DNA of 64,000 nt. Source: Acetomicrobium thermoterrenum DSM 13490. Lineage in GTDB: Bacteria > Synergistota > Synergistia > Synergistales > Acetomicrobiaceae. The position numbers and the translations under genes were made by a program. The notes under the pieces were generated by a model. That model had not been told where the DNA came from. It did no database searches and worked only from the letters and a program-made list of their open reading frames with translations. Positions 28,439-41,691 of the stretch are shown in pieces (the stretch's first letter is position 1; the number at the start of each line of letters is the position of its first letter). Location: positions 186,001 through 250,000 of the forward strand of contig NZ_FNPD01000002.1 in assembly GCF_900107215.1 (NCBI RefSeq), read 5' to 3'.

Positions 28439-28882
28439 TTATAGAATCAATTTGTTGCCCGGCTTGCCTCCTTTGGTTATTTTATCCAGTTCGGATAATA
28501 TTGCCGGAGATGCCACATCCAGGCGCGGTTTCTTGTTTTCCTGAGAGGTTAGTTCGCGAAGCTTTTGTTCGTATTCTTCCATGCTCTTTTTAATCGTATC
28601 AGCGTCTCCCTTGAGCCATAGAAGGATATTTTCCGCTATGGCCTTTACCTCTTCATCGGTCAGATCGTTTTGCGTAGCACCAATTGCCTTCATGAGCTTT
28701 CCCTGCTCTCTGACCGCATCTACAATGTCGTCATCGGTTATAATGCCCTTCTTATAAAGGGCTCGACCCAATACATCGAACTTGGTCTTCATGCTCTCTT
28801 CGGACATGGCCACGCTGTCTATACGAGCCATCATCAAAGAAAGCATATCTTCCAATGTCATTTGCATTGCTCTGGGTTGCAT
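28439..28882 (-). CDS. Hypothetical cytoplasmic helical protein
   Basis: 147 residues, no signal peptide or membrane segment, rich in Met, Lys, Glu and Asp and predicted mostly helical. The N-terminal part (TLEDMLSLMMARIDSVAMSEES) and YKKGIITDDDIVDAVREQGKLMK (about 44-66) suggest helical bundles; the C-terminus is lysine-rich. I recognise no family. Ribosome site aaggggga. It may have its own promoter (TTGACG-N18-TATTAG on the minus strand around 28905-28935) downstream of the candidate small RNA. Confidence 0.6.
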   Translation of the reverse strand: MQPRAMQMTLEDMLSLMMARIDSVAMSEESMKTKFDVLGRALYKKGIITDDDIVDAVREQGKLMKAIGATQNDLTDEEVKAIAENILLWLKGDADTIKKSMEEYEQKLRELTSQENKKPRLDVASPAILSELDKITKGGKPGNKLIL

Positions 28883-28989
28883 TATATATTCCCCCTTATG
28901 GTAGATAAATTTCTAATATTTCCGTTCTTGCCTACGCGTCAAGCACGTGTATTTTAACAGAAACAGAATGAATTATAAATGGAAGTTTA

Positions 28990-29082
28990 ATAAAAAAGGG
29001 ACCTCAACGGGTCCCTTTTTTTGAGGAGGAGATAGGGTTTGGATACGGTATTTGGCTTTGTCTTCCATTGCCGCACCCAGCA
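28990..29082 (-). ncRNA. Candidate small RNA (about 93 nt) with own promoter and terminator
   Basis: The 307-bp gap between ridA and the helical protein gene holds a complete minus-strand transcription unit without an ORF. A sigma-A promoter at 29089-29117 predicts a start near 29082 and an intrinsic terminator ends near 28990. The predicted RNA can pair GGG and TGCGG (near its 5' end) with CCGTA and CCC, and carries an unpaired TCTCCTCCTC just before the terminator, complementary to Shine-Dalgarno sequences. It does not look like 4.5S, 6S or tmRNA. It could instead be a leader of the gene at 28882. Confidence 0.5.
28992..29021. terminator. Strong intrinsic terminator of the candidate small RNA
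   Basis: Twelve-bp stem AAAAAAGGGACC/GGTCCCTTTTTT with a 6-nt loop and T-runs on both strands. Confidence 0.85.
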
Positions 29083-29088
29083 AATGAG

Positions 29089-29117
29089 AGTTTAATCACC
29101 TATAGCTGTTTTGTCAA
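29089..29117 (-). promoter_or_regulatory. Promoter of the candidate small RNA
   Basis: Minus-strand TTGACA (complement of 29112-29117), 17-bp spacer, TAAACT (complement of 29089-29094). It lies after the ridA stop and no ORF follows before the terminator. Confidence 0.6.
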
Positions 29118-29189
29118 CTTGAAAATTATATTCTATATTTTTCCATTATTTATAATTTTCAGAATATTTTTTGAGATAATACAGTATTG

Positions 29190-29567
29190 TTATGCTATGG
29201 CAATCACTTCCATCTCAAGTAGAGCCTTTTCCTTTGGTAGTTTGCTCACTTCAACGAGAGATCTGGCAGGTCTATGATCGCCAAAGAATTCTGAATACAC
29301 CTTGTTGATGGCCTGAAAATTGGCAATATCGGTTACAAAAACTGTGGTTTTAACGACTTTCGATATATCAGACCCGGCACTTTCCAGAATTGCCTCAATG
29401 TTTTGCAACACCCTGACCGTCTGCTCCTCTGCAGAACCTTCTACAATCAAGCCGCTTTCCGGGTCTAGAGGCAGCTGCCCCGAAACGAAGACAAATCCGT
29501 TTACTTTTACAGCAAGCGAATAGGGCCCAACTGCTTTAGGTGCTTTATCACTATGGATATATTGCAT
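29190..29567 (-). CDS. ridA: RidA family enamine/imine deaminase
   Basis: 125 residues of the YjgF/YER057c/UK114 family, which hydrolyses reactive enamines and imines released by PLP-dependent dehydratases. Signatures: KAVGPYSLAVKVNGFVFVSGQLPLDP (about 10-35), the substrate-carboxylate arginine in RPARSLVEVSKLPKEKALLEMEVIA near the C-terminus, and EQTVRVLQNIEAILESAGS. Forms trimers in the cytoplasm. Consistent with the amino-acid catabolism elsewhere in the window. Monocistronic. Confidence 0.96.
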   Translation of the reverse strand: MQYIHSDKAPKAVGPYSLAVKVNGFVFVSGQLPLDPESGLIVEGSAEEQTVRVLQNIEAILESAGSDISKVVKTTVFVTDIANFQAINKVYSEFFGDHRPARSLVEVSKLPKEKALLEMEVIAIA

Positions 29568-41562: not shown

Positions 41563-41600
41563 AAAAAAAGAAGGAGCCTGTTGTGGCTCCTTCTTTTTTT
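41563..41600 (-). terminator. Terminator after tRNA-Leu
   Basis: Sixteen-bp perfect stem (41563-41578 with 41585-41600), 6-nt loop, seven T on each strand side. It ends 6 nt beyond the tRNA CCA. Confidence 0.88.
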
Positions 41601-41606
41601 GATCTA

Positions 41607-41691
41607 TGGTGCCGAGGGGGGGATTTGAACCCCCACGGGAAATCCCACACGCCCCTCAAACGTGCGTGTCTACCAATTCCACCACCTCGGC
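41607..41691 (-). tRNA. tRNA-Leu (anticodon GAG)
   Basis: Minus-strand gene of 85 nt including an encoded CCA. Acceptor GCCGAGG pairs with CCTCGGC. The D-arm has the leucine pattern GGAATTGGTAGAC. Anticodon stem CACGT/GCGTG holds loop TTGAGGG, so the anticodon is GAG (codons CUU/CUC). A long class II variable arm (GGGATTTCCC) and T-arm GGGGGTTCAAATCCCCC follow. An intrinsic terminator lies directly downstream. The remainder of the gap 41460-41818 holds nothing else I can support. Confidence 0.97.

Follow-up and report, generated by a model that had tools for sequence, protein, structure and literature searches.

Among the alpha-r14/NfeR1 small RNAs (sRNAs) of the alpha-proteobacteria, the cuckoo RNAs, NfeR1 is Hfq-independent and carries an ultraconserved, unpaired anti-Shine-Dalgarno sequence, CCUCCUCCC, with which it silences mRNAs by occlusion of the ribosome-binding site (PMC10746234). 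In Bacillus and Staphylococcus the C-rich regions of RoxS/RsaE, FsrA and CsfG pair with mRNAs of central metabolism, sometimes at the ribosome-binding site (PMC8216469). The locus described here lies between two ordinary genes in a 64,000-nucleotide stretch, called the window, that was analyzed from the genome of Acetomicrobium thermoterrenum DSM 13490, a heat-loving anaerobe of the phylum Synergistota. Its predicted RNA is like the alpha-r14/NfeR1 RNAs in having an unpaired, conserved anti-Shine-Dalgarno motif and in the trans mode of action proposed below, and like RoxS/RsaE, FsrA and CsfG in being compact and having a C-rich region. The architectures are different. NfeR1 folds into three hairpins with CCUCCUCCC in an unpaired region of each, whereas the Acetomicrobium RNA has one copy of its motif, with a 5' hairpin on one side and the terminator on the other; a covariance match to alpha-r14/NfeR1 was not obtained. 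RoxS/RsaE, FsrA and CsfG have several C-rich regions in another arrangement; the Acetomicrobium RNA showed neither sequence nor covariance match to them, and its sequence and structure place it outside RsaE/RoxS. The best reading is that it would act like alpha-r14/NfeR1 or RoxS/FsrA while standing outside those families.

The transcription unit was read directly from the sequence and its features are collected in Table 1. Judged by sequence only, it has the make-up of a bacterial intergenic sRNA gene, with a promoter and a terminator of its own around a short non-coding stretch. Seventeen nucleotides separate the -35 and -10 boxes; about 6 nt after the -10 box TAAACT the conserved segment TGCTGGGTGCGG (29082-29071) begins, and beyond the apical loop come CCGTATCCA (29048-29040), AACCCTATCTCCTCCTCA (29039-29022) and the terminator. 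The start of transcription was predicted at about 29082, roughly 7 nt past the -10 box, and the 3' end was set at the U-run. A preliminary description of the locus had given TTGACA-N17-TAAACT and a 12-bp terminator; the coordinates and spacing of the former were found to be right, and the latter indeed has 12 pairs at 29021-28992. The RNA without an ORF that was proposed there has no conserved ORF, and its predicted length is about 91 nt rather than about 93 nt. The pairings GGG/CCC and TGCGG/CCGTA are real, but both are parts of one 5' helix of 9 bp (29079-29071 with 29048-29040; UGGGUGCGG/CCGUAUCCA). The complementarity to ribosome-binding sites noted for the CUCCUCCUC stretch before the terminator was confirmed, CUCCUCC being the complement of the consensus. 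The sRNA terminator is absent from the list of a generic terminator scanner, apparently because its U-run pairs with the A-run and was counted as stem. It may also serve as a stop for read-through from ridA.

Table 1. Features of the sRNA locus and its neighbours (window coordinates)
Feature	Position	Strand	Basis or remark
ridA (Rid family, Ribonuc_L-PSP), upstream neighbour	29190..29567	(-)	Pfam/family search
AT-rich box ATATAGAATATA	29127..29138	(-)	invariant in 3 lineages
sRNA unit, promoter to terminator	29117..28992	(-)	read directly from sequence
-35 box TTGACA	29112..29117	(-)	perfect consensus; 6/6 columns invariant
-10 box TAAACT	29089..29094	(-)	5/6 columns invariant; TAGACT in one lineage
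Predicted sRNA, ~91 nt	28992..29082	(-)	covariance model, fold, 6/6 Acetomicrobium genomes
5' arm of 5' hairpin, UGGGUGCGG	29071..29079	(-)	inside invariant TGCTGGGTGCGG (29082-29071)
Apical loop of 5' hairpin, 22 nt, variable	29049..29070	(-)	8/22 columns invariant
3' arm of 5' hairpin, CCGUAUCCA	29040..29048	(-)	two variable columns keep G-C/G-U pairing
C-rich tract AACCCUAUCUCCUCCUCA, 18 nt, proposed anti-Shine-Dalgarno seed	29022..29039	(-)	17/18 columns invariant
Intrinsic terminator, 12 pairs	28992..29021	(-)	AAAAAAGGGACC-CGTTGA-GGTCCCTTTTTT
Extended -10 promoter of 28882 gene, TGTTAAAAT	28942..28965	(-)	downstream of sRNA terminator, bounds sRNA unit
28882 gene, conserved 147-aa Synergistota protein	28439..28882	(-)	in 58/61 genomes

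The predicted RNA of about 91 nt has a minimum free energy (MFE) of -32.1 kcal/mol, as against -19.5 +/- 3.1 kcal/mol in shuffled sequences (z = -4.1). The same two-hairpin fold was the MFE structure in three lineages, with z values of -4.1, -3.5 and -3.9, and in all three the CUCCUCCUC tract was unpaired save for its first bases in one. A composite scan for a -35 box with at least 5/6 matches, a -10 box with at least 4/6 matches and a strong U-tailed hairpin 40-160 nt downstream returned two units in the 64-kb window, namely the sRNA unit and one over a tRNA gene found with Rfam; in eight Markov-randomised windows the scan returned none.

Relatives were sought by a DNA search of 61 genomes and with two covariance models, R1 (the whole RNA) and R2 (the RNA minus its terminator), over 188 Synergistota genomes. 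By DNA search and both models the sRNA was found in six of six Acetomicrobium genomes, A. hydrogeniformans among them, and the order ridA - sRNA - 28882 gene was kept in all Acetomicrobium sequences aligned. The window locus itself matched at 110 bits, its sequence being one of the three from which the model was built. Conserved columns were counted over the three diverged lineages only (G000, G001 and G004), which are about 80% identical over the element. The promoter spacer is 17 nt long in every lineage while only 6/17 of its columns are invariant, and the start region after the -10 box has 0/6. By comparison, the 5' arm segment TGCTGGGTGCGG is invariant in 12/12 columns and the 3' arm in 7/9. 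The apical loop differs between lineages in both length and sequence. Terminator columns were invariant in 21/30 cases and those of the spacer beyond it in 11/26; for the 28882 gene the figures were 21/24 in its promoter and 13/46 in its 5' UTR. Arms and tract together gave 36/39 invariant columns versus 60/177 in drifting columns (Fisher p = 1e-11), a p-value that is descriptive only, because the columns depend on the alignment and on phylogeny and because segments were picked after looking. Two one-sided changes, G-C to G-U and back, occur in the 5' helix with pairing kept, and no two-sided pair change was seen there in the three lineages; since no pair varies on both sides, the helix is supported by thermodynamics and conservation and not by covariation. 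Upstream of the promoter, the AT box ATATAGAATATA is identical in 12/12 columns, with 18/51 and 4/9 in its surroundings. Its position, about -45 to -56, is one that would suit an UP element or an operator, and the box is read as a putative site of this kind.

The locus is thus conserved in relatives as an RNA rather than as a protein, and the conserved tract that its fold leaves unpaired has complementarity to ribosome-binding sites. It is very probably an RNA gene.

Beyond Acetomicrobium, the remaining 182 Synergistota genomes searched yielded no homologue. The sequence ahead of the 28882 gene was also read directly in 25 further Synergistota genomes, and no RNA of this type was seen. R2 matches outside the genus were at chance level over the 188 genomes, the best scoring 26 bits. 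Among the weak outside matches, those inspected owed their score to the terminator, sat next to tRNA genes or consisted of a C-rich stretch, which in these cases resembles the complement of a ribosome-binding site on the opposite strand. A second match in the window (41564-41643) proved to be the 3' end of a tRNA gene plus a terminator and not a second copy of the sRNA. As judged from these genomes, the predicted sRNA is confined to the genus Acetomicrobium. No Rfam model matched the window locus or two diverged copies at the gathering score; down to E <= 10 only low scores were obtained, well under the gathering scores, and none belonged to an anti-Shine-Dalgarno sRNA. The library of 4227 Rfam models presumably included alpha-r14 and, likewise, RsaE.

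Other readings of the locus were weighed against an sRNA gene. Transcription attenuators and riboswitch leaders also consist of a hairpin followed by a terminator on the same strand as a gene 3' of them, and the 28882 gene lies about 110 nt further on in the same orientation, where read-through would reach it. Here, unlike in such leaders, the promoter of the downstream gene follows the terminator. The extended -10 element TGNTANAAT was present in 24/28 orthologous upstream regions across the Synergistales, compared with 1% in shuffles, about 50-90 nt before the matched start of the 28882 orthologues, and in Acetomicrobium this promoter is positioned past the sRNA terminator. The gene therefore travels with a promoter of its own, conserved across the order, and this separate promoter speaks against a gene relying on leader read-through. 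In addition, none of these orthologues outside Acetomicrobium has the sRNA, the MFE structure of a longer RNA showed no alternative anti-terminator pairing with the terminator stem, and the aptamer-like part is a single hairpin with a variable loop. A leader acting in cis on the 28882 gene, whether attenuator or riboswitch, is accordingly very unlikely. In the preliminary description an attenuator had been offered as the alternative to an sRNA, which was preferred there on account of a separate promoter for the 28882 gene. The preference agrees with the RNA-gene type of conservation in 6/6 Acetomicrobium genomes, and the attenuator is disfavoured in view of an extended -10 promoter kept across the Synergistales. 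A covariance search across the Synergistota, also named there, recovered the RNA in the genus Acetomicrobium and not phylum-wide, and the outcome named as refuting, a region left unconserved while its flanking genes are conserved, was not what was seen within the genus. The 147-aa protein of the 28882 gene gave no Pfam or NCBIfam match; it represents an order-wide family with a conserved extended -10 promoter.

The unit could also belong to ridA, either as a 3' UTR and terminator that have no function of their own or as the source of an sRNA processed from the ridA mRNA, given that ridA lies upstream on the same strand in the genus and that the scanner saw no terminator between it and the sRNA unit. 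An inert 3' UTR would not be expected to hold a -35 box of perfect consensus and, at a constant 17-nt gap across a drifting spacer, a conserved -10 box; the conservation of the C-rich tract would also be left unexplained. This origin is highly improbable. A short protein-coding gene is barely conceivable: an ATG at 29068-29066 in the window starts a 31-codon frame that runs through the terminator, but frame, start codon and length are lost in other lineages, the ATG being absent in one, and this reading was rejected because the frame is not conserved across the three lineages. Finally, the RNA could be real and yet not pair with Shine-Dalgarno sequences, its tract for example binding a protein or acting as a sponge for a G-rich RNA. 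Conservation of the tract would suit any single-stranded binding function, the genomes show no enrichment of the extended anti-complement, and C-rich Firmicute sRNAs are bound by the G-rich sponge RosA (PMC8216469). Nevertheless the core CUCCUCC, the defining feature of the tract, complements the consensus ribosome-binding site exactly, and a non-pairing role is considered rather unlikely.

The best reading is a stand-alone, genus-specific, Hfq-independent sRNA acting in trans, new to the databases searched and of a known kind. Transcription would start at a dedicated sigma-70-type promoter and stop at the unit's own intrinsic terminator. The two hairpins, one at the 5' end and one in the terminator, would shield the ends of the RNA and keep the 18-nt AACCCUAUCUCCUCCUCA open between them, and the open tract is complementary to Shine-Dalgarno sequences that have AU(A)GGG after them. 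Given this complementarity, the most likely mode of action is in trans at ribosome-binding sites, where the RNA would cover those of selected mRNAs and lower their translation without Hfq. Anti-Shine-Dalgarno pairing in trans is the probable mechanism. Hfq-free action is expected because Hfq (PF17209) had no match in four Acetomicrobium genomes (G000, G001, G004 and G066), while control genomes did match.

Sites of the form GAGGAGG-N3-9-ATG are in excess by tens per genome. As GAGGAGG ribosome-binding sites are common, any specificity would depend on the AACCCUAU extension. Predicted duplexes of the tract in the three lineages had energies of -21.7, -24.4 and -27.2 kcal/mol with the ribosome-binding site of sepF and -21.7, -20.0 and -25.5 kcal/mol with that of glpK, values that are biased upwards, as both genes were picked by a genome pattern search; among 57 window genes the median was -12.5 and the best -20.2 kcal/mol, so that about one in 57 reaches -20. 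The name sepF rests on a Pfam match and glpK (glycerol kinase) on reading of the start of the protein. On this evidence sepF (cell division) and glpK are candidate targets as leads only. Counts of the extended complement AGGAGGAGATAGGGT with up to 3 mismatches equalled those of a reversed control, that is, there was no enrichment in the genomes. Since the tract can match a very large number of ribosome-binding sites, and since the extended complement shows no enrichment, no target is established. An identical extended-complement site in two lineages was rejected as a target, being antisense within coding sequence, and fhs (formate-tetrahydrofolate ligase) was rejected at only -17 kcal/mol. Two genes of one genome, L108:1501 and L111:1501, have products 97% identical over 501 aa with a start resembling formate-tetrahydrofolate ligase, and share the ribosome-binding site GGAGGAGATCCCATG.

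At 29154-29168 the sequence AATTTTCAGAATATT differs from the Firmicute CodY box at one position, with 0.09 such occurrences expected per window. The Firmicute box is also bound by a CodY-like protein of Synergistota (PMC9318921). By eye the two diverged lineages have not kept the box, and for this reason CodY control of the sRNA is not claimed. A broader proposal, in which the RNA would be a genus-specific, Hfq-independent global regulator in the Synergistota, nutrient-controlled through the AT box or a CodY-like site and tuning cell division (sepF) and glycerol use (glpK) via the ribosome-binding sites of these genes, is improbable.

Apart from its phylum, the gene is of an ordinary kind. Table 1 of a 2022 survey gives a single annotated sRNA for Synergistota (PMC9029176). 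sRNAs are nearly undescribed in this phylum, and the locus provides a clearly bounded candidate in a genus that can be cultured and seemingly has no Hfq. The candidate bears on whether anti-Shine-Dalgarno sRNAs arose independently in Synergistota, as in the alpha-proteobacteria and the Firmicutes.
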